A DNA stretch of 64,000 nt from Halomarina rubra (GCF_023699475.1 NZ_JALXFV010000008.1:62001-126000); one strand, 5' to 3'. Positions 24,214-37,469 are shown, numbered from the stretch's first letter. The notes: generated by a model not told the origin, from the letters alone. Made by a program: numbers and translations.

Positions 24214-26535
24214 TCAGTCGTCCGTTTCGGTCGGGTCGTCGACGGACTCGGCTCCGCTCAACACCGTCCCCAGCAGGTCCACCGCGCCGTCAGTGTGGAG
24301 CGGACTGTTGCCGGAACCACACTGCGAGTCCATCACACAGCCCGGACAGCCCTCGGTCCCCTCACAACCGCACGACTCGACGACGGTGCGGGTGTTCGCC
24401 GCGACGCGCTCGAACCGGTCGTACAGTTTGCGCGAGAAGCCCAGTCCGCCCTCGACGCCGTCGTAGACGAAGATGCCCGGCGAGTCGAGTTCGGGGTGGG
24501 TGAGCGCCGACAGGCCACCGAGGTTCGACTTGTCGAGCGTACACTCCAGCGGCGCGAGTTTGATGATGCCGTGTTCGGCGGCGTGCTGCGCGCCCTGGAA
24601 CGCGACGTCCGGCGAGTCGACGCCGTGGCGCTGGCCGAGACGGGCGCGTTCGGACTCGGGCACCGCGAGCCAGAGCGCCTGCGTCCGCATCGACAGCGGC
24701 GAGAGACCGGTCGGCTGTGGCGCGCCCAGACTCTCGCCGGTCGCGATGGACTTGCGGGTGTAGGTGTCGTAGTGGACGGTCACGTCCGCGCTCCCCCAGT
24801 GGAGCGTGTAGTCGCCGAACGCGCGCGAGCGCTCCGAATCGAGGTTCCCGATGCGCGTCGCGTGGTTCGTCTGAGTGTAGTAGTCCACGTCGACGGGTTC
24901 GAGGTCGATTCGTGGCTGGTGGCCCTCCTCCTCGAAGCCGACGACCTCGAACTGCTGGCCGCGATGCAGCGTCACCGCGCCGGGGTGATACTCGCGGTAC
25001 GCCCGCGCCCGTCCGACGGGTTCCAGCGCGGCGTCGACGTCGTCGGGCGTCCGAATCACGAACTCGTCGCCGCCGCTGGCGTACATCGACACGCTCGATT
25101 GGGGGCGGTCCCGTCGGTCGTAGATGACACCGGTGTCGAGGGTCCCCGTCAGATACCCCGCCTTGCGCCACATCTCGACCGCCGGTGCGAGGCGCTCGCC
25201 GAACCAGCGCTCGTCGTCGTGGGTCAGGGGCAACTCGTGGGCCGCACAGAGCAGGTGGCGAGCGAAGACGGCGTTGTTCGAGCGGTCGACGACCGCATCT
25301 TCGACCACGTCCTCGCCCAGCACGTAGCCCGGGTTGGCGAACACGTAGTTGTCGATGGCGTCCGCGCGCCCGACGAGCACCGACAGCGCGTCGCCCGTCC
25401 CCCGCCCCGAGCGGCCGAGTTGCTGCCAGAACGACTGGCGACTCCCAGGGTAGCCAGAGAGGAGCGTCGCCTCGACGCTCCCGATGTCGATGCCGAGTTC
25501 CAGCGCGGAGGTCGTGACCACGCCGTCGAGCGAGCCGTCCTTGAGACCCCGTTCGGTCGCCCTCCGGTCGCGTTTCGTGTGGCCCGCGTTGTACGACTCG
25601 ATACGCAGGCGACCCATGTTGTGGCGCGTCGCCGCCCGCTTCGCCCGCTCGCGGTTCAACTCGGTCATCCGTCGGGAGCCGACGAACGCGAGCGTCTGGG
25701 TGCCGTTCGTTCCGAGGTGGGCGAGCAGGTCGGCGGCTTCGGCGCTCGCAGACCGGCGCGCCTCGCCCTCGCCGGGCGGTCGCCAGAACGCGATTTCGCG
25801 TCGTCCCCGGGGGGAGCCGTCGTCGTCGACGACCGTCACGTCGCCGTCGACGAGGGTCTTCGCGTGTTCGGCGGGGTTGCCGATGGTCGCCGACGTCAGG
25901 ACGAGCGAGGGGTCGGCGTCGTAGTGCTCCAGCACGCGCCGGAGTCGCCTGACGACCCACGAGACGTGCATCCCGTGGACGCCGGAGTAGGCGTGTGCCT
26001 CGTCGATGGCGAGCGTCGCGCAGTCGCCGAACACGCGCGCCCACTGGCTGTGCTGGGGGAGGTAGGCGTTCACCCCCGAGAAGTTCGTGACGACCACGTC
26101 CGCGGTCCGGCGGACGTCGCGCTTCGCCTCGCTCGCGGTGTCGCCGTCGTAGACGCGCACCGAGATGTCGAGACCGAGCGTGTCGTACAACTCGGAGAGC
26201 GCGCGTCGCTGGTCACGCGAGAGCGCCTTCGTCGGGCAGAGCAGGAGCGCGGTCGAGTCGGGGTCCCGGAGGTGCTGTCGGGCGATTTCCAGGGCGTAGA
26301 CGAGCGTCTTCCCGCTGGCGGTGCTCGTCGTCACGCAGACGTCCTCGCCGCGAGCGAGCGCGTCCAGCGCGGTCGCCTGGTGGCTGTAGAGGTCGTGGGG
26401 CATCGACGCGGCGAGGTCCGGTCCGAGCACGTCGCTCGCGGGGACGGTCACCGCGTCACGAGCCTCCTGGACGAACACGTCCCGGAGCTGGCCGCCGTAG
26501 TCGGGGAACGTCGCGCGGAGGCGGTCGGCGTTCAT
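24214..26535 (-). CDS. MrfA/YprA-type DEAD/DEAH helicase with C-terminal four-cysteine (DUF1998) domain
   Basis: The 773-residue protein is a superfamily 2 helicase. Walker A is TTSTASGKT (residues 69-77), motif II is IDEAH (177-181), motif III TSATIGNP and motif VI QQLGRSGRG. The C-terminal region ends in FVYDGVEGGLGFSRKLYDR and a cysteine cluster (CGCEG, CPGC, CGSGN), the DUF1998/MZB zinc domain of the MrfA (YprA) and Hrq1 helicases. In Bacillus MrfA works with the exonuclease MrfB in excision of mitomycin-type DNA damage. Here the gene directly follows an MrfB-like exonuclease gene, with 21 bases between. The role in DNA repair is inferred from that pairing. Confidence 0.9.
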   Translation of the reverse strand: MNADRLRATFPDYGGQLRDVFVQEARDAVTVPASDVLGPDLAASMPHDLYSHQATALDALARGEDVCVTTSTASGKTLVYALEIARQHLRDPDSTALLLCPTKALSRDQRRALSELYDTLGLDISVRVYDGDTASEAKRDVRRTADVVVTNFSGVNAYLPQHSQWARVFGDCATLAIDEAHAYSGVHGMHVSWVVRRLRRVLEHYDADPSLVLTSATIGNPAEHAKTLVDGDVTVVDDDGSPRGRREIAFWRPPGEGEARRSASAEAADLLAHLGTNGTQTLAFVGSRRMTELNRERAKRAATRHNMGRLRIESYNAGHTKRDRRATERGLKDGSLDGVVTTSALELGIDIGSVEATLLSGYPGSRQSFWQQLGRSGRGTGDALSVLVGRADAIDNYVFANPGYVLGEDVVEDAVVDRSNNAVFARHLLCAAHELPLTHDDERWFGERLAPAVEMWRKAGYLTGTLDTGVIYDRRDRPQSSVSMYASGGDEFVIRTPDDVDAALEPVGRARAYREYHPGAVTLHRGQQFEVVGFEEEGHQPRIDLEPVDVDYYTQTNHATRIGNLDSERSRAFGDYTLHWGSADVTVHYDTYTRKSIATGESLGAPQPTGLSPLSMRTQALWLAVPESERARLGQRHGVDSPDVAFQGAQHAAEHGIIKLAPLECTLDKSNLGGLSALTHPELDSPGIFVYDGVEGGLGFSRKLYDRFERVAANTRTVVESCGCEGTEGCPGCVMDSQCGSGNSPLHTDGAVDLLGTVLSGAESVDDPTETDD

Positions 26536-26556
26536 CGTGGTGGCTCCGTCATCGGT

Positions 26557-27942
26557 TCAGAACTCCGAGAGCGACCCCTGTCGGGTGTCGCCGGTCTCGT
26601 CGGTGGTCCGGTCGGCGATGCTCGACGCTACGCGGTCGGTCGCCGCGACGGCGTCGAACACGTGGGCGAGCATCCGCACGTCGTCCTCGCAGTACGCCCG
26701 GTGGCGCTCCCAGTCGGGTTCGGGGCCGCCGTCCATCCACGCCCGGTAGCGACGAGCCGTCTCCGCGCCCGTGAGGCCGGTGTCGTGGCCCTCGTAGCCG
26801 AGCGCGCTCGCGACCGCCTCCAGCTTGTTCGTCCGGCCCGGTAGGACGGCGTTCTCCTCGTCGCGCGCCCAGGCGAGCAGGTCGCACTTCGTGTTCTGTC
26901 GCCACACCTCCTGCCGGTCGGGGTGGGTGGCGGCGACGTGGTCGTCGAGGACGGGGAAGTCGAACCCCCACCCGTTCCACGCGACGAGCGTCCCGTCGAC
27001 GCCCGCCAGCCAGTCGAGGAACGCGCCGAGCATCCCACTCGCCTCCTCGGGGTCGCGCGCGAGGAACGACCGGTAGTCGCCGCGGAACAGCACGCCGACC
27101 TGCCAGACGACGCTCGGTCGGAGCCCGTCGGTCTCGATGTCCAGAAAGACGGGGTCGGCCGGGAGCGGTGCGTCGCCCGTTCGCAGCACCTCGCCGCGTT
27201 CGAGCGCCTGCGCCGAGCGAACGACGGTCCGTGCGCTCGCGCGACCGAACCCTTCCAGCGTCGCGAGTTCGTGGGGTGGCGTCGCCGCCAGCGACGCGCG
27301 GTCGTACCCTGCACGTGCAAGGGTCGTCGCTCGACTGTCACCGACGCCGGACAGTGCGCGCAGTCCGAGTCTGTCGGTCCGAATCTCCTCGACGGCGACG
27401 GTGCCGTCGGCGTGGAGCGAGAGCACGGGGGCGGCCGGCGCACCCTGCGTCTCGACCGGTGCGAGTCCCTGGACGTCGAGGCCGCCCCACTCGCGGCGGT
27501 AGTCCGCGGGGACGCTCGCGGCGAGGTGGACGAACGCGGCGTCGCCGTCTGTCCCCGTCGTTCCGAGCGCCTCCCGGTAGGCCGTCGCGCCGTCGAGTCG
27601 GGTGTCGAGTTCCATCGGGTCCGTCTCGACGGCGAGCAGCTCGGTGGCGAGGTAGGCGGTCGACTCGCCCGCCTCCTCGCGGGCGACGTCGGCGACCCGC
27701 CGGACCTCGTCGAGCGTCGCGCAGGTGCCGAGCGTCACGTCGCCGAACGCGTGGATTTCGCCCTCGGGTGTGAGGATGGGCACCTCGCTCTCGGGCGGGC
27801 GAAATCGGCCCGGAGCGTACACTCGCTCGGGGACTAGGACGGCGTCGGGGGCGGCCGCGGCGTGGAGGTCGGCGAGTTCGCTCGGAGAGAGACGGCCCGC
27901 GAGTCGCGAGGGCAACGCGAGCACCGTCGCCGGTCGAGGCAT
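26557..27942 (-). CDS. RNase H-like (DEDDy) exonuclease with helix-hairpin-helix motifs, MrfB/YprB-like
   Basis: The 461-residue protein has an N-terminal region of unknown fold (about 1-180), two helix-hairpin-helix motifs (LSGVGDSRATTLARAG and LEGFGRASARTVV, about 195-250), and a YprB-type exonuclease domain. Acidic catalytic residues are seen in FLDIETDG, in WNGWGFDFPVLDDH and in YCEDDV, where Tyr four residues before Asp marks the DEDDy type. MrfB of Bacillus is the nuclease partner of MrfA. Its own neighbour downstream is the MrfA-like helicase. The HhH region replaces the TPR part of bacterial MrfB and would add DNA binding (inference). Confidence 0.85.
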   Translation of the reverse strand: MPRPATVLALPSRLAGRLSPSELADLHAAAAPDAVLVPERVYAPGRFRPPESEVPILTPEGEIHAFGDVTLGTCATLDEVRRVADVAREEAGESTAYLATELLAVETDPMELDTRLDGATAYREALGTTGTDGDAAFVHLAASVPADYRREWGGLDVQGLAPVETQGAPAAPVLSLHADGTVAVEEIRTDRLGLRALSGVGDSRATTLARAGYDRASLAATPPHELATLEGFGRASARTVVRSAQALERGEVLRTGDAPLPADPVFLDIETDGLRPSVVWQVGVLFRGDYRSFLARDPEEASGMLGAFLDWLAGVDGTLVAWNGWGFDFPVLDDHVAATHPDRQEVWRQNTKCDLLAWARDEENAVLPGRTNKLEAVASALGYEGHDTGLTGAETARRYRAWMDGGPEPDWERHRAYCEDDVRMLAHVFDAVAATDRVASSIADRTTDETGDTRQGSLSEF

Positions 27943-28033
27943 CGACCGAGAGGAGGGGACGGACGCACAAGAAACGCGCGACCGGGTGGGGCTCCAGTCG
28001 CGATACGGCGGGGCGTGCTGCTACCGGCCGTTG

Positions 28034-29104
28034 CTACACCGCGGCGGTACCGGTCTGGTTGCCCGCGCTCTCCCCACCCGCCTGCTGTCGGGCCGCCGGG
28101 AGCCAGTCGGGGGCCTCGACACTCGTCTCGCCGACGTCCCGGACCTCGTAGCTCCGCGCGAGCGTCGTCGTCCGGCCGCCGATGTCGACGGTCAGCGTGT
28201 AGGCGAAGCGCTCGACGACGCCGGACTCGCTCACGACGAGCGTCGCCTCGTACGCCGAGACGTTCGGGTCGAACGCCGGCGAGTCCGTGGCGTCGCTCGC
28301 GTTCTCGCCGGGGGCGGCACCGCCCGCCTCGCTCCCGTTCTGTCGGAACAGGGCGTCGGTGTCGAGCGCCTCCGGACCGCTCGCGGTGTAGGTCGTCGCG
28401 CCCTCGGTGTCGGTGGCCGACTCGGTCCACGTCGTCGCGTCGACGACGTCGAACGCGCCCTGGAGGGTGACGAACTGGTCGGCCGAGGCGGCGAACGCCG
28501 CACCGCCCTGCGAACCGTTCAGCACCTCGTACTGCGGGTCACCGCCGGGGCCGGCGACCCGGAGATAGGTGGTGTCGTCGGCGGTGTACAGTTCGACGGA
28601 CTGCTCCGTCGAGTCGTCCGCCGCGGAGGCGTTCGCGCTCGCCGTCGCGTTCGAAGCGTTCCCGACGAGCGAGCGTTCGGAGTCGCTCCGCTGGTAGTTG
28701 GTGTCGTTCGCGAGGTCGAGTCGCGCCGTGGTCGTCACGGACGACCGGACCTGGTCGGTCTCGGTCGTCGCGTCGACGACGACCGTCACCGACCCCGCCT
28801 CGCGGATGGTCCGCTCGTGTCGGGCCGCGAGTGCGGTAGCGTCGACCGTCCCGTTCTCCGTGGTCCCGTTCTCCGTGGACCCGTTCGCGCCGACGCTCGC
28901 CTCGGTCGTCCCGGTCGCGTCGCCACCGTCCACGGTGTCGTTCTGTCCGGTCGTGGCCGATCCACCGCTCGTGCCCCCGGTCACGGTGCCGGCTCCGTCG
29001 ACCGTCTCCCCGTCGGTCGTCGCGTTCGACCCCGGCCCCGCGCCGCAGCCGGCGAGCACCAGCGTGAGACACAGCAGTACCGTCGCAGGTCGTGACAGCG
29101 CCAT
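28034..29104 (-). CDS. Haloarchaeal lipoprotein, DUF7537-like
   Basis: The 356-residue protein (MALSRPATVLLCLTLV) has a signal peptide ending in the lipobox LAGC, so it is likely a lipid-anchored surface protein. A Thr/Gly/Ser/Asn-rich linker of about 60 residues follows, with repeated NGT sequons that could be N-glycosylated. The folded part has TIREAGSVTVVVDATT, ELYTADDTTYLRV and DVVDATTWTESAT, and ends EVRDVGETSVEAPDWLP. The same layout (sensor-like beta domain) is seen in the next gene, so the two are paralogues. The function is unknown. Confidence 0.75.
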   Translation of the reverse strand: MALSRPATVLLCLTLVLAGCGAGPGSNATTDGETVDGAGTVTGGTSGGSATTGQNDTVDGGDATGTTEASVGANGSTENGTTENGTVDATALAARHERTIREAGSVTVVVDATTETDQVRSSVTTTARLDLANDTNYQRSDSERSLVGNASNATASANASAADDSTEQSVELYTADDTTYLRVAGPGGDPQYEVLNGSQGGAAFAASADQFVTLQGAFDVVDATTWTESATDTEGATTYTASGPEALDTDALFRQNGSEAGGAAPGENASDATDSPAFDPNVSAYEATLVVSESGVVERFAYTLTVDIGGRTTTLARSYEVRDVGETSVEAPDWLPAARQQAGGESAGNQTGTAAV

Positions 29105-29280
29105 ACTGCCGACGGCTTCACACATCAGAACGTTGTCACTGCGGGTTGCCAGGGGCAAGGTCGAGAACGTCGCCGAACGCGGACCAGTCGTCTCTCGTGA
29201 CGCTCGACCACCTCGTCGAATGAAAACTGGCGAGAACCGATACAAAGTCGCTCCGGTCGGACAGTCGGTGGTCCGCCCGC

Positions 29281-30093
29281 TCAGGCGCTCGACGCGTTTC
29301 GCGCGCGGTCGAGCCAGTCCGGTCGCTCGACGCTGGTGTCGTCGAGGTCGCTCACGCCGACGCTCGACCGACTCTTCACCGAGCGACCGGCGAGGTCGAT
29401 GGTGGTCTCGGTGGTGAACGAGCGGACGGTCCCGTCGCTCGTGACGAGCAGGACCGCGTCGAAGTCGGCGACGTTGGCCGCGGACTCCGGCGCGCCGGAG
29501 CGAGCGAGGAGCGCCGAGTGCTCGACGGCCGCCGAACCGTTGGCGACGTACCGCGTGAGGGTCTCGCCGTCGACCGTCTCGGTCCCGTCCTGTGTCCAGT
29601 TCGTCGCGTCGACGACGGCCCACTGTTGCGCCAGGGTCGCGCTGGCGACGATGTCGCTCGACAGGTTCGTCGGCCGGGAGTCGTACTGCGTCTCGCCGCC
29701 CGCCTGTTGCTGGGCGTACGCGGTGCCGTCGGTGATGAAGACAGAGACGTTCGACCGACTCGGCGTCCCGAGCACGGACCCGTTGGTCCGCGAGACGTAG
29801 CGGTACTCGTCGTCGGTGACGTCGACCCACGCGGTCAGCGTCGTGTCGACGGTGTACGACCCGTTCGACTCTTGGCCCAGGTTCGTCGTCCCGGAGGAGT
29901 TCGCGTGGTAGGTGAACGAGTCGGCCGCCTCGACGTTCTCGGTGTGGTCTGCCTGGAGCGCGCTCGCGTTCAACGGTTCGTCGGGGGAGGTGTACGCCTC
30001 GCTACTGCCGCCGCCGAGTCCGGGGACGGCCGAACAGCCGGCGAGCACCAGCGTGGCACACAGTAAGAGGGCGAGTGTCGGGGACTTCCTCAT
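29281..30093 (-). CDS. Haloarchaeal lipoprotein, paralogue of the neighbour
   Basis: The 270-residue protein (MRKSPTLALLLCATLV) has a lipobox LAGC, then ALQADHTENVEAADSFTYH, YRYVSRTNGSVLG and AVVDATNWTQDGTETV, which correspond to the segments of the preceding lipoprotein. It ends SDLDDTSVERPDWLD, like EVRDVGETSVEAPDWL of the paralogue. Seven or more N-x-S/T sequons are visible. It lies 176 bases upstream of the paralogue on the same strand. A perfect inverted repeat sits between its probable promoter and the ATG. Confidence 0.77.
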   Translation of the reverse strand: MRKSPTLALLLCATLVLAGCSAVPGLGGGSSEAYTSPDEPLNASALQADHTENVEAADSFTYHANSSGTTNLGQESNGSYTVDTTLTAWVDVTDDEYRYVSRTNGSVLGTPSRSNVSVFITDGTAYAQQQAGGETQYDSRPTNLSSDIVASATLAQQWAVVDATNWTQDGTETVDGETLTRYVANGSAAVEHSALLARSGAPESAANVADFDAVLLVTSDGTVRSFTTETTIDLAGRSVKSRSSVGVSDLDDTSVERPDWLDRARNASSA

Positions 30094-30095
30094 GC

Positions 30096-30115
30096 GCCTC
30101 CCGGTCTGGGGAGGC
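30096..30115. promoter_or_regulatory. Perfect inverted repeat at the promoter of the lipoprotein gene
   Basis: GCCTCCC, 6-base loop GGTCTG, GGGAGGC: a perfect 7-base stem ending 2 bases before the ATG at 30093. A T-rich TATA-like box (minus strand GTTTTTCC, about 30116-30124) is centred roughly 27 bases before the ATG, so the repeat covers the probable start of transcription. It could be an operator or an RNA hairpin over the start. Confidence 0.45.
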
Positions 30116-30162
30116 GAGGAAAAACGGTTGCGGTCGGTCGATTCCTCGTGGGTGGTCTCGGC

Positions 30163-31719
30163 TCAGAACCGCCGGCGGAGTTTCACCACCGCCGACAGCG
30201 CCGTGGTGTACCACTCCCCGGGCACCCACGACGGCGGCGCGACGGGGCCGACTCGCGAGACGGCGACGGTCTGCTGGTCGGTGTACTTCCGGATGCCCTC
30301 CGGCCCGTGGCGACGACCGAGACCGGACTGCTTCATCCCGCCCATCGGCGCGTCGGTCGCACCCAGCGTCGTGATATACGGGTCGTTGACGCTCACCGTC
30401 CCGGCGTCGAGGCGCTCGGCGACCGCCCGGCCGCGGTCGTGGCTCTCGGTGAACACGCAGGCGTTGAGACCGTAGTCGGTGTCGTTGGCGCGCTCGATGG
30501 CCTCGCGGGTCGAGCCGACGGGGTAGACGGCGACGACCGGGCCGAACGTCTCCTCGCGGAAGCAGTCCATCTCGGGGGTGACGTCGGTGAGGACGGTCGG
30601 CTCGAAGGCGTAGGGGCCGACGTCGGGGCGGTGTTGCCCGCCGGTGCGGACGGTCGCACCCTTCTCGCGGGCGTCCTCGACGTGTGCCCGAACGCGCTCC
30701 AGTTGCTCGCCGGAGGCGAGCGAGCCGACGTCCGTGTCGAGGTCACTGCCGCTCCCGAGCGTGAGCGCCTCGGTGGCGACGACGAGGCGGTCGACGAACG
30801 TCTCGTACAACGAGTCGTGGACGTAGGTGCGCTCGGGGGCGACGCACAGCTGCCCGGCGTTCGGGAAACAGCCAGCGATGGCCCCGCGAACGGCCGTCCC
30901 GAGGTCGGCGTCCTCGAGCACCAGCATCGGGTTCTTCCCGCCGAGTTCGAGCGAGCACGGGACGAGGTTGCGCCCGGCCTGCTCGGCGACGAGGCGACCG
31001 GTCTCGACGCTGCCGGTGAACCCGACGTAGTCACTGCCCGCGACGAGCGACTCGCCCAGCTCCGCCCCGTCGCCGGTGACGACCTGACAGACGTCCGGTG
31101 GGAGGCCGGCCTCCCGCAGCAGTTCGACCGCGCGGAGCGCGACGAACGGTGTGTGCTCGTCGGGTTTGAGGACGACGCCGTTGCCCGCGAGCAGCGCGGG
31201 GATGGCGTCGGAGACGGAGAGCGTGAGCGGGTAGTTCCAGGGGGAGACGATGGTGACGACCCCGCGCGGGTGGTAGTTCACGCGAGTCGGCGAGAGGAGA
31301 CCGAACGCCCCTTCGCGTCTCTCGGGGGCGAGCAGGTCGCCGGCGTCGCCGTAGTACTCGCAGTGGGAGACGACGTCGAGCAGTTCCTCGAAGCCGGTCC
31401 GGCGGGCCTTCCCGCCTTCGAGTTGGAGCAGGTCGAGGAACTCCTCGCGGGCGTCCCAGAGCAGGTCGCCGAAGCGCTCGACGACGGCGGCGCGCTCCTC
31501 GAAGGACCGGTCGGCCCACTCGTGGTGGGCAGTGCGGGCGCGACGCACCGCGAGGTCGGCGTCCGCGGCGGTGCACGCCGGGACCGTGCCGAGGGGGTCG
31601 CCGGTGAACGGTGCCTCCACGACGAGACGGTCCCGGTCGCCGTCGCCACGGGTGGCGACCGTCGCGAGTCGGTCGAGTCGCTCGTCGTCCGCCCGGGGTT
31701 CGGTGTCGGGTCGAGCCAT
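30163..31719 (-). CDS. Aldehyde dehydrogenase, succinate-semialdehyde dehydrogenase-like
   Basis: The 518-residue protein is an NAD(P)-dependent aldehyde dehydrogenase. The general-base Glu258 is in SLELGGKNPM and the nucleophile Cys292 is in NAGQLCVAPER. The N-terminal SPWNYPLTL, the cofactor segment GFTGSVETGR, and the C-terminal DAPMGGMKQSGLGRRHG are all present. The fold class resembles the succinic semialdehyde dehydrogenases of actinobacteria (GabD2-like), but the substrate is not proven. The start is the ATG at 31719. It is divergent from the cyclase gene. Confidence 0.88.
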   Translation of the reverse strand: MARPDTEPRADDERLDRLATVATRGDGDRDRLVVEAPFTGDPLGTVPACTAADADLAVRRARTAHHEWADRSFEERAAVVERFGDLLWDAREEFLDLLQLEGGKARRTGFEELLDVVSHCEYYGDAGDLLAPERREGAFGLLSPTRVNYHPRGVVTIVSPWNYPLTLSVSDAIPALLAGNGVVLKPDEHTPFVALRAVELLREAGLPPDVCQVVTGDGAELGESLVAGSDYVGFTGSVETGRLVAEQAGRNLVPCSLELGGKNPMLVLEDADLGTAVRGAIAGCFPNAGQLCVAPERTYVHDSLYETFVDRLVVATEALTLGSGSDLDTDVGSLASGEQLERVRAHVEDAREKGATVRTGGQHRPDVGPYAFEPTVLTDVTPEMDCFREETFGPVVAVYPVGSTREAIERANDTDYGLNACVFTESHDRGRAVAERLDAGTVSVNDPYITTLGATDAPMGGMKQSGLGRRHGPEGIRKYTDQQTVAVSRVGPVAPPSWVPGEWYTTALSAVVKLRRRF

Positions 31720-31892
31720 ACCGAGACAGCGGGCGCGACCCGCATACCACTGCCGCCCGGAGCCGTCGGCCGTCGCCTAGTTTCTTGTAGCTGGACATTC
31801 ATTGATACCTCAACGTCGGACGACTCCGTCGTCGGTCGGGGGCCAGTGGCGACTCCGTCCGACCCGTCTCACCGCTTCGCCACCAGTTCACC

Positions 31893-32510
31893 ATGACCCT
31901 CTACGACCTCTCGCACCCTATCGGACCGGGGATGCCGACGTATCCTGGCGACCCGGTCGTCGAGACGTACCCGAACGCGACCCACGAAGAGGAGGGGTTC
32001 AGCCTCACCGCGTTCGGTCTCAGCACCCACACGGGGACACACATCGACGCGCCCGTTCACGTCGAACCCGACGGGAAGGCGCTCGACGAGTTCCCCATCG
32101 AACGGTTCCACTACGACGCGCGACTCGTCCCGTGTGACGCCGAGTCGAACGAACAGATCACGCCCGAGGACCTCCCCGACGCCTCCGACGACGCCGACCT
32201 CTACGTGTTCGCGACGGGGTGGAGCGAGCGCTGGGGCGACATCTCGTACTTCGAGCACCCGCACCTCAGCCCCGACTGTGCGAAGGTCTGTGCCGAACGT
32301 GGCGTCGACGTCGCCGTCGACTGCCCGAGCGTCGACCCCATCGGCGGCGACCTGCTCGCCCACCACGAACTGTTCCGCGAGAGTCGCCTCGTCGTCGAGA
32401 ACGTTCGGAACCTCGCCCCACTCCCCGAACGGTTCACGGTCCACGCCTACCCGCTCCCGCTAGCCGACGCCGACGGCGCGCCCGCCCGCGTCGTCGCCGA
32501 AGTGGAGTGA
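31893..32510 (+). CDS. Cyclase family protein (kynurenine formamidase-like metal hydrolase)
   Basis: The 205-residue protein (MTLYDLSHPIGPGMPTYPGDP) has the metal-binding hallmark HTGTHIDAPVH near residues 46-56 and the later VAVDCPSVDPIGGD with HHELF. This is the cyclase/kynurenine formamidase-like fold, which hydrolyses amide or lactone bonds with Zn or Mn. The true substrate is unknown, as no tryptophan-degradation gene is adjacent. A compact hairpin follows the stop. Confidence 0.85.
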   Translation: MTLYDLSHPIGPGMPTYPGDPVVETYPNATHEEEGFSLTAFGLSTHTGTHIDAPVHVEPDGKALDEFPIERFHYDARLVPCDAESNEQITPEDLPDASDDADLYVFATGWSERWGDISYFEHPHLSPDCAKVCAERGVDVAVDCPSVDPIGGDLLAHHELFRESRLVVENVRNLAPLPERFTVHAYPLPLADADGAPARVVAEVE

Positions 32511-34904: not shown

Positions 34905-37469
34905 GTGACCGACACCCCCCGAACCGTCGCCCGCGACTCGCTCGATTCGGCGTGGAGCGACTGGTTCCCGTTCGACCCGTACCCGCAGCAAGCCGACGGG
35001 GTCGAACGCGCGCTGGACGCGATGCGCGACGGGGGCTTTCTCGCCCTCGAAGGGGCCTGTGGGACCGGCAAGACGCTCATCGCGCTCGCCGCCGGTCTAC
35101 AGGCCATCGACGAGGACGTCGCCGAACGGGTGTTCGCCGTCACGCCCGTCAAACAGCAACTCAAGCAGTTCCTCGCGGAGGTCCGGGCCATCAACGCGGG
35201 TCGGGACGGCGACCCCCCCGTCGACGGACTGGTCGTCGTCGGCAAGCGCGACCTGCTCCCGTACGCCCGGACCGACGCCCTCCCCGGCGAGAAGGGGACA
35301 CACGACGCCGCCAGCGACCTCCGGGAGGCGACGGTGAGTCTCGTCCACCGCGAGTCGACGCAGGCGCTCGACGTCTCGCCCGGTGCCCTCGACGGCCGTA
35401 TCAACGTCTGTGCGGCGAGCGACTGCGACACCCTGTCGTACTCCGAGCCGCGATGTCCGGACCACCGCGAGGAGCGCGACGAGGAGGCCCCGTGGTACGA
35501 CCCCGTCCGCGCCGAGGCGCTCTGCTCGCTCGTCGAGTCGATGGGTGGCGACCCACTGGAGACGGCGGGCGTCACCGCGCCGTACCCCGCGAAACCGCCG
35601 CACACCCGGGACGTCCTCGACATCTACGACTCGGAGGAGCTACCGGCTGGCGAGGCGGGCTACTTCGACCCGTTCTTCGCCCGCTTCCTCGCCGACGAGG
35701 GCTGGCCCGGCGTCGACTTCTCGGCGGGCGAGCACAACGTCCTCGACCCGGAGGCGCTCGTCGCCGCCGCCGTCCGTCGCGGGACCTGCCCCCACGAGTG
35801 CCTCGCGGCGCTGATGCCCGAGGCGGACGTGCTCGTGGGCAACTACAACCACGCGTTCGACCCCATCACGCGCCAGTTGACCGCCGAGAAGGCGGGCGTC
35901 CTCGACGGCGACACCCTCCTCGTCGTCGACGAGGCCCACATGCTCGAAGAGCGCGTGCGAGACTTACTGTCCGAGACCTGTTCGCTCCACGCGCTGCGGA
36001 CGGCCCACCGCGACCTGGCGCTGGCCCGCGAGTACCTCTCGGGCAACGGCGGCGAACCGGGTGCTGACTCGGGTGCTCACCAGCGCCACGCCCGCCAGAC
36101 GCTCGCGGAGTTCGACAGCGTCGACGAGCGCGACCTGGCGTTCACCCAGTCGGTCCTGGAGTGGGCCGCGGCGACCGTCGACGACGAGGTGAGCGCGTTC
36201 CTCGACGAGGAGTTCGCCGACTGGTCCCGGCAGTTCGCCGAGGGGTCGCTGCCCGACGAGGACCACGAGATACCGCTCCGTGACCCCGAAGCCGTCGAGA
36301 CCGACCGGTTCACCGACCGGGCGCTGTCGGAGTTCCCCGACGACGTCTGGACCCGCGTGCGGGACGCCTGCTACGTCGCGGGGCAGGTCCACGAGAACGA
36401 CGGCCAGACCGACCGAACGCCGACGGCCCCGACCGTCGGACGGTTCTTCCACCAGTGGGGGCTCCTCGACCACGGGACGTACTTCCGGGAACTCGAACTC
36501 GAGTACTCAGAGAAGGCAGTCACCGACACGACGCTTCCGGAGTGGGCGGGTGCGTTCAACGCCTCGCTCGTACTGTTCAACTGCATCCCCCGGGACCCGC
36601 TGGCCCGCGTGCTCGACGACCTCGCCGGTGGCGTGCTGATGAGCGCGACGCTCGAACCGTTCGACGTGTTCGAACGCGTCAGCGGCCTCGAACTGCTCGA
36701 CGAGGGCGACGAGGACGCCGACCGACCGCCGAGGCGGGTCGAGGACGCCACCTACGGCCTCGCGTTCCCGCCGGAGAACCGCGCGTCGTGGGTGCTCGAC
36801 CTCCCGGCGTTCACCTACCGGAACCGCGGCCCGCCGGTGACGGAGTACGAGGAGATGACCCGCACCCGACAGGGCTACGCGAGCGCACTCGTCACCGCGG
36901 CGCGCTCTCACGGCAACACGCTGGTGTGTATGCCCTCCTACCGCGAGGCGGAGTGGGCCGTCGAGTACCTCCGCGAGCGCATCGACGACCCCGTGCTCCG
37001 GGACCGCTCCTCCGAGTCCTCGGAGACCGACGCGATGCTCGGGCGGTTCTTCCAGGGCGACGACACCGACCGCGTGCTCGTGACGAGCGCTCGCGGCACC
37101 GTCACGGAGGGCGTCGACTACCACGGCGAACGACTCCACTGTGTCGTCGTCGTGGGCGTCCCGTACGCCAACACCTCGACCCCGCGGATGGGCGCGGTGA
37201 TGAACGCCTACGACCGCGAGTTCGAGCAGGGGAGCGGGTTCGACACCGCCGTCCAGGTGCCCGCCGTCCGCAAGTCGAGACAGGCGTTCGGGCGCGTCAT
37301 CCGCGGTCCCGACGAGGTCGGGGTCCGACTGCTGTTCGACCGCCGGTACCTCCGGGACGCTCCACGGTCGGTCAACCACGTCCTCGGAGAGACCGAACGC
37401 GAGGAGTTCAGCGCGGTGAGTCCGGACATGCTGGACCTCGCGCTCCAGCAGTTCTGGACGAGCAGGTAG
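34905..37469 (+). CDS. XPD/Rad3-like (DinG family) DNA helicase
   Basis: The 854-residue protein starts with GTG at 34905 (VTDTPRTVARD). It is a superfamily 2 5'-3' helicase of the XPD/DinG type. Walker A is GACGTGKT at residues 50-57, motif II is VDEAH, then GGVLMSATLEPFD and the C-terminal SARGTVTEGVDYHG and QAFGRVIRGPDEVG. Cysteines in NVCAASDC, RCPDH and TCPHEC lie between motifs I and II, where XPD carries its 4Fe-4S cluster; the spacing is wider than in classical XPD. It is probably a repair helicase. The long insert between Walker A and B holds most of the extra length. Confidence 0.9.
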   Translation: MTDTPRTVARDSLDSAWSDWFPFDPYPQQADGVERALDAMRDGGFLALEGACGTGKTLIALAAGLQAIDEDVAERVFAVTPVKQQLKQFLAEVRAINAGRDGDPPVDGLVVVGKRDLLPYARTDALPGEKGTHDAASDLREATVSLVHRESTQALDVSPGALDGRINVCAASDCDTLSYSEPRCPDHREERDEEAPWYDPVRAEALCSLVESMGGDPLETAGVTAPYPAKPPHTRDVLDIYDSEELPAGEAGYFDPFFARFLADEGWPGVDFSAGEHNVLDPEALVAAAVRRGTCPHECLAALMPEADVLVGNYNHAFDPITRQLTAEKAGVLDGDTLLVVDEAHMLEERVRDLLSETCSLHALRTAHRDLALAREYLSGNGGEPGADSGAHQRHARQTLAEFDSVDERDLAFTQSVLEWAAATVDDEVSAFLDEEFADWSRQFAEGSLPDEDHEIPLRDPEAVETDRFTDRALSEFPDDVWTRVRDACYVAGQVHENDGQTDRTPTAPTVGRFFHQWGLLDHGTYFRELELEYSEKAVTDTTLPEWAGAFNASLVLFNCIPRDPLARVLDDLAGGVLMSATLEPFDVFERVSGLELLDEGDEDADRPPRRVEDATYGLAFPPENRASWVLDLPAFTYRNRGPPVTEYEEMTRTRQGYASALVTAARSHGNTLVCMPSYREAEWAVEYLRERIDDPVLRDRSSESSETDAMLGRFFQGDDTDRVLVTSARGTVTEGVDYHGERLHCVVVVGVPYANTSTPRMGAVMNAYDREFEQGSGFDTAVQVPAVRKSRQAFGRVIRGPDEVGVRLLFDRRYLRDAPRSVNHVLGETEREEFSAVSPDMLDLALQQFWTSR

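Follow-up and report, generated by a model that had tools for sequence, protein, structure and literature searches.

Is an archaeal YprA-type helicase gene with an adjoining exonuclease gene the counterpart of the bacterial repair pair MrfAB, or something assembled separately? The question is raised by a stretch of 64,000 nucleotides from Halomarina rubra (GCF_023699475.1, NZ_JALXFV010000008.1:62001-126000), hereafter the window, in which a gene for a YprA-family helicase follows one for a DEDDy exonuclease and which an initial annotation had described as an archaeal MrfA/MrfB-like pair. The helicase family and the adjacent exonuclease have stood; the nuclease lineage, the gene order and the active site are not those of MrfAB. 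The pair is probably a rebuilt look-alike of the bacterial repair pair and not a straight copy, because its nuclease belongs to another family and ends in a tail predicted to clip onto the replication clamp. The reading favoured here, with somewhat better than even confidence, is a DNA-repair module of a helicase and a 3′-exonuclease, tethered to PCNA, in which the nuclease partner has been replaced.

Both open reading frames (ORFs) are encoded on the minus strand, with the nuclease upstream of the helicase, at the coordinates and with the 21-base spacing first given for them:

24214-26535, minus strand: YprA-family superfamily 2 (SF2) helicase, 773 aa (Pfam DEAD, Helicase_C, WHD_HRQ1 and MZB; PDB 6znp; trees)
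26536-26556, no strand: intergenic gap of 21 bp (usually −4 to +8 bp in relatives)
26557-27942, minus strand: DEDDy exonuclease protein, 461 aa (RNase_H_2, E 1.1e-26; structural model with a predicted local distance difference test score (pLDDT) of 90.5)

The pairing is not a matter of chance, because the two genes were called together, on the same strand and nuclease first, in 36 of 41 regions (the window and 40 fetched), which also confirms the expected linkage of this nuclease to a helicase in relatives. In four of the remaining five, the search coordinates place the two matches next to each other, and it was the simple gene caller that overlooked the pair. Both genes are under purifying selection (dN/dS, the nonsynonymous to synonymous rate ratio, against a congener is 0.12 for the helicase and 0.22 for the nuclease), and the helicase and exonuclease motifs examined are all intact, being conserved in 34 helicase and 31 nuclease homologues. 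A clear nuclease homologue (E < 1e-40) was found in 93 of 242 Halobacteria genomes, and the pair recurs as a self-contained two-gene unit on chromosomes and plasmids, with no third conserved gene beside it in the 41 regions outside close relatives. In Natronobeatus (G212) the nuclease gene of the pair is broken into two ORFs (L081 7521-8465, plus strand, plasmid NZ_CP101457). In-frame TAG codons seen in some homologues proved to be merely the stop codons that end the genes of a second family.

The helicase half of the pair has the following features:

26305-26328, minus strand: Walker A TSTASGKT, residues 70-77 (T70, T72, S74, G75, K76 and T77 invariant in 34 homologues)
25993-26004, minus strand: DEAH box, residues 178-181 (D178, E179 and H181 invariant in 34 homologues)
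24334-24579, minus strand: MZB (MrfA Zn-binding) domain, residues 653-734 (PF09369, E 1e-17)
24319-24372, minus strand: cysteines C722, C724, C730, C733 and C739 (invariant in 34/34 homologues)

An SF2 core followed by a winged-helix and the MZB zinc domain places the protein in the YprA/MrfA family, each of its four Pfam domains exceeding its cut-off, and the top PDB match is Bacillus subtilis YprA/MrfA (6znp, E 3.6e-116, residues 25-734 aligned), of the same SF2 family and domain order. The first description, a YprA-type DEAD helicase with a four-cysteine C-terminal domain, was right about the family and the MZB domain; the box reads DEAH, and the invariant cysteines number five. In the trees it falls with the YprA helicases and apart from Lhr/BrxH-like SF2 proteins, in agreement with that assignment. 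The paired helicases form one clade of their own (100/100), outside the Bacillota MrfA clade and distinct from the standalone haloarchaeal YprA, the YprA of methanogen-type Halobacteriota and three large defence-type YprAs, which make up the whole defence side of the tree. They differ from MrfA in this separate, fully supported position and in having a partner that is upstream and of another lineage. A sister group is not claimed, because two quick trees disagree, one giving the standalone haloarchaeal YprA (support 96) and the other the methanogen-type YprA (91), and AU (approximately unbiased) tests do not decide; the careful helicase tree with these tests did not favour any one arrangement of the four YprA clades.

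The search of the literature for archaeal MrfAB homologues yielded one directly relevant source, a family-wide preprint that distinguishes a repair branch (YprA-only and MrfAB) from a defence branch (PMC12458937), and within the limits of sampling the helicase fits the repair-type branch. The same preprint reports repeated use of the helicase family in defence, which lends some credit to an anti-virus or anti-plasmid module whose YprA helicase and nuclease would degrade foreign DNA, as in DISARM, Dpd, Druantia and ARMADA. However, the paired helicase lies outside the clade of the three sampled defence sequences, is far shorter than those proteins and is without their partner genes, no methylase or other defence partner being conserved beside the pair in the 41 regions. 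Some paired helicases (~890-930 aa; L064, L066, L068, L073-L077, L080 and L082) make up a longer subtype, in which an insert interrupts the MZB region and a conserved RRPxLFY[SA]-like motif stands at the terminus. Two giant adjacent YprA-type helicases (1825 and 1868 aa; L251 4059-15140, minus strand) in the congener G158 resemble Druantia/BRIGADE-type defence. In the window's own genome a DrmB-like protein with an MZB domain precedes a PLD-type protein (L004 492-3255, minus strand), which may be a DISARM-like locus.

What, then, is the nuclease? The full model consists of an N-terminal domain (residues 1-188), a helix-hairpin-helix (HHH) part, an exonuclease domain and a disordered tail. The HHH and exonuclease parts are as follows:

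27196-27366, minus strand: tandem HHH, residues about 193-249 (HHH_5; model helices; profile match to the HHH of RadA/RAD51/eL32)
26641-27159, minus strand: DEDDy exonuclease domain, residues 262-434 (nearest are family-B polymerase proofreading domains, VIA Z 16.6)
27133-27141, minus strand: catalytic D268 and E270 (DIETDG), invariant in 31 homologues
26959-26961, minus strand: catalytic D328 (NGxxFD), invariant in 31 homologues
26680-26694, minus strand: motif III, Y417-CED-D421 (YCEDD), Y and D invariant in 31 homologues, with H in MrfB and methanogen-type YprB

The HHH_5 match at residues 194-245 reaches 26.8 bits against a cut-off of 27 in the window protein, and E <= 0.01 in 31/31 homologues. 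The HHH and RNase_H_2 part of the TM0106-type model TIGR03491 likewise matches all 31, whereas the model's N-terminal part is unmatched and its curated cut-off is not reached (41.2 vs 97.45 bits, over the HHH and exonuclease part only). A PDB search with the single nuclease sequence returned no exonuclease relative. MrfB itself is absent from the VIA and Foldseek rows listed, which says nothing on a difference in fold.

The view first taken was that of a true archaeal MrfAB orthologue in which only the DNA-targeting module had changed. The helicase family is indeed the same, the partner is an RNase_H_2 exonuclease adjoining a YprA helicase, as is B. subtilis MrfB/YprB (PDB 8un9), and in fold both exonucleases are similar to the proofreading domains of PolB (PMC11194089). 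However, B. subtilis MrfB is a DEDDh enzyme with C-terminal tetratricopeptide repeats (TPR) (PMC11194089) and is encoded downstream, whereas the window nuclease is DEDDy, has a phosphoesterase-like N-terminal domain, HHH and a PCNA-interacting-peptide (PIP) tail, and is encoded upstream, so that the gene order of the MrfAB system is reversed. Among the fetched Bacillota loci, 72 of 80 have a same-strand exonuclease ORF near mrfA, downstream in every case among those listed, and motif III, where recovered, reads HNxxD; the haloarchaeal paired nucleases have YCxxD throughout. A C-terminal TPR was detected in a Bacillota MrfB, where the window nuclease has its disordered tail instead. The YprB–YprA pairs of methanogen-type Halobacteriota (L205-L211) share more of the layout, with the exonuclease immediately upstream of YprA, an HHH-like segment before the exonuclease (below Pfam thresholds) and no TPR, but their nuclease is DEDDh (HNxxD, with one variant per sequence).

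The exonuclease-domain tree separates these proteins in the same way. MrfB and the methanogen-type YprB form a single clade (100/96). The paired nucleases are in another, shared with phosphoesterase–HHH–exonuclease proteins (100/99), and constraining them to join MrfB/YprB is rejected by the AU test (p = 0.0015). In profile comparisons the paired nucleases match the phosphoesterase–HHH–exonuclease group at E 1e-28, methanogen-type YprB at 1e-18 and MrfB at 4e-10, against 5e-42 between MrfB and methanogen-type YprB. The profile match of the window nuclease to MrfB is weak (E 0.009). On the tree, the AU test and the profile comparisons the nuclease seems to be a substitute partner of DEDDy phosphoesterase–HHH–exonuclease origin rather than a DEDDh MrfB/YprB; it would then not be an MrfB orthologue, and the whole protein appears to be derived from another lineage. 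Direct MrfAB orthology is accordingly improbable in our estimate. Calling the enzyme a YprB-type DEDDy exonuclease was correct for DEDDy and RNase_H_2 but not for YprB, and of the proposed replacement of TPR by two HHH motifs only the tandem HHH itself holds; it does not substitute for the TPR, for it lies N-terminal to the exonuclease, whereas the TPR of MrfB is C-terminal, and relatives share the HHH. An exchange of the DNA-targeting module only is too narrow an account, since it is apparently the entire nuclease that is of other descent, and the DEDDh YprB of the methanogen type has an HHH-like segment as well.

The nearest exonuclease relatives are haloarchaeal plasmid proteins of metallophosphoesterase–HHH–RNase_H_2 type (L195-L198), which are DEDDy and have the same three-part layout; unlike the paired nucleases they have a phosphoesterase recognisable by Pfam and no PIP box in the sequences read, and helicase pairing is not known for them. 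They are 94-98% identical across different haloarchaeal genera and mostly plasmid-borne, which suggests recent spread. The tree also holds a third, standalone RNase_H_2 lineage, represented by a 260-aa DEDDy protein with an HHH-like part (L001 1459-2241, minus strand) and by counterparts in 19/19 Halobacteria genomes sampled.

The two ends of the nuclease distinguish it further:

27379-27942, minus strand: N-terminal domain, residues 1-188 (calcineurin-phosphoesterase-like predicted fold; model pLDDT 91.4)
26560-26580, minus strand: PIP-box-like QGSLSEF closing the disordered tail, residues 455-461 (34/36 homologues)

When the N-terminal domain was modelled alone, the VIA list was headed by calcineurin-like phosphoesterases (Z 8-10.5 in the top rows), with Rv0805 at 10.5 (root-mean-square deviation 3.8, 172 aligned), GpdQ at 10.0 and SbcD/Mre11 at about 9. 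The best Foldseek E is weak (2.4e-3), the comparison with phosphoesterases at the sequence level gave no significant match, and hhalign aligned the HHH and exonuclease parts and left this domain out; the fold is therefore only probable. The assignment is supported by the Pfam-recognised phosphoesterase at the same position in L195-L198. None of the metal-binding motifs DxH, GD, GNHD and GHxH is conserved in the homologues, and the domain seems to lack a metal centre.

At the other end, 34 of the 36 homologues finish in Qxx[ILM]xx[FWY], and of the two that do not, one is a split gene; among the remaining proteins called in these regions, 3 of 522 have such an end. Archaeal PIP boxes are usually at the extreme terminus, and in some haloarchaeal clients the second aromatic residue is replaced (PMC3504372, PMC2737543). 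FEN1 and RNase HII of the window's genome, which served as positive controls, end in QTGLDDWL and QSRLDGF. The C-terminal QxxLxxF is a predicted PIP box, from which we infer binding to PCNA. Such a box fits replication-linked repair better than defence.

The distribution of the pair bears on what it is for. Among the 242 genomes, 78 have only the pair, 123 only a standalone YprA, 15 both and 26 neither, so the two are nearly complementary (Fisher p 2e-25, with 7.6e-6 in family f1 and 9.2e-6 in family f4, a test that ignores phylogeny; p 0.022 when shuffled within genera). A standalone YprA was not found in the window's own genome, and no RNase_H_2 relative was found within ~3 kb of flank near the standalone haloarchaeal YprA genes. 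A defence role would fit the patchiness of the distribution, the 46 matching plasmid records (all haloarchaeal among the matches listed, some belonging to a second family) and presence or absence at a syntenic site within one genus: the pair occurs in two species of the window's genus, while a third (G237) has the syntenic flanks without it, the segment from about 24215 to 31900 of the window (the pair, two DUF7537 genes and an aldehyde dehydrogenase) being replaced by ~1 kb. Phage records gave no match to the pair, and IMG/VR gave only partial weak matches, mostly to the first exonuclease motifs. The flanks are mostly metabolic, with scattered PADLOC defence matches, e.g., one pAgo and three mad2. 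It is this, together with the near-complementarity, that favours DNA repair over defence, which we consider unlikely. The tandem DUF7537 genes missing in G237 (28034-30048, minus strand) stand immediately upstream of the pair in the window, and an XPD/DinG-like helicase (Helicase_C_2, DEAD_2; 34905-37469, plus strand) lies ~7 kb away.

The frequency of the pair on haloarchaeal megaplasmids, its predicted PIP box and the second YprA that adjoins it on some plasmids would also suit a factor for plasmid or replicon maintenance, acting through PCNA in replication restart or resection on large plasmids rather than in general lesion repair. Many copies are nevertheless on chromosome-sized contigs, that of the window being at least 0.88 Mb, and the near-complementarity with the standalone YprA argues against such a role, to which we give very little weight. 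The second YprA (~832 aa; L253 4305-6800, plus strand; L254 224-2719, minus strand) is nearer to the standalone haloarchaeal type and was seen on the related plasmids G019, G046, G100, G113, G175 and G181.

If the pair is the PCNA-tethered repair module favoured here, the YprA-type helicase would unwind DNA at a lesion or stalled fork, presumably with the 3′-5′ polarity of MrfA and SftH, and the co-expressed DEDDy enzyme would digest the released strand, starting at the 3′ end. The tandem HHH would hold the nuclease on DNA and the PIP box would tether it to the PCNA clamp, while the phosphoesterase-like domain, apparently without a metal centre, may act as scaffolding, possibly to hold the helicase. 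The polarity, complex formation, repair role and any damage specificity are what we infer from the protein families. The pair would take the place of the standalone haloarchaeal YprA in most lineages. A fuller account, which we hold tentatively and somewhat short of an even chance, is that a DEDDy enzyme replaced MrfB/YprB in a PCNA-tethered unit, a metal-less phosphoesterase turned scaffold, the unit later displaced the standalone YprA in many lineages, and "YprA plus 3′ exonuclease" evolved repeatedly. Several points weigh against the repair module. To our knowledge neither an activity nor a complex nor a damage phenotype has been described for any member from archaea. The patchy, often plasmid-borne distribution resembles an accessory trait more than core repair, and replacement of the standalone YprA is not strict, since 15 genomes have both. 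The exonuclease-domain tree is built on 178 columns, and the phosphoesterase call comes from predicted structure alone.

If this reading is true, YprA was joined to a 3′-5′ exonuclease on more than one occasion, from separate nuclease lineages, and the combination itself would therefore be what selection keeps. The predicted PIP box would offer a concrete point of entry into how the pair gets to damaged DNA where replication is eukaryote-like, and the near-complementary distribution makes the idea that the pair replaces the standalone helicase directly testable by haloarchaeal genetics.

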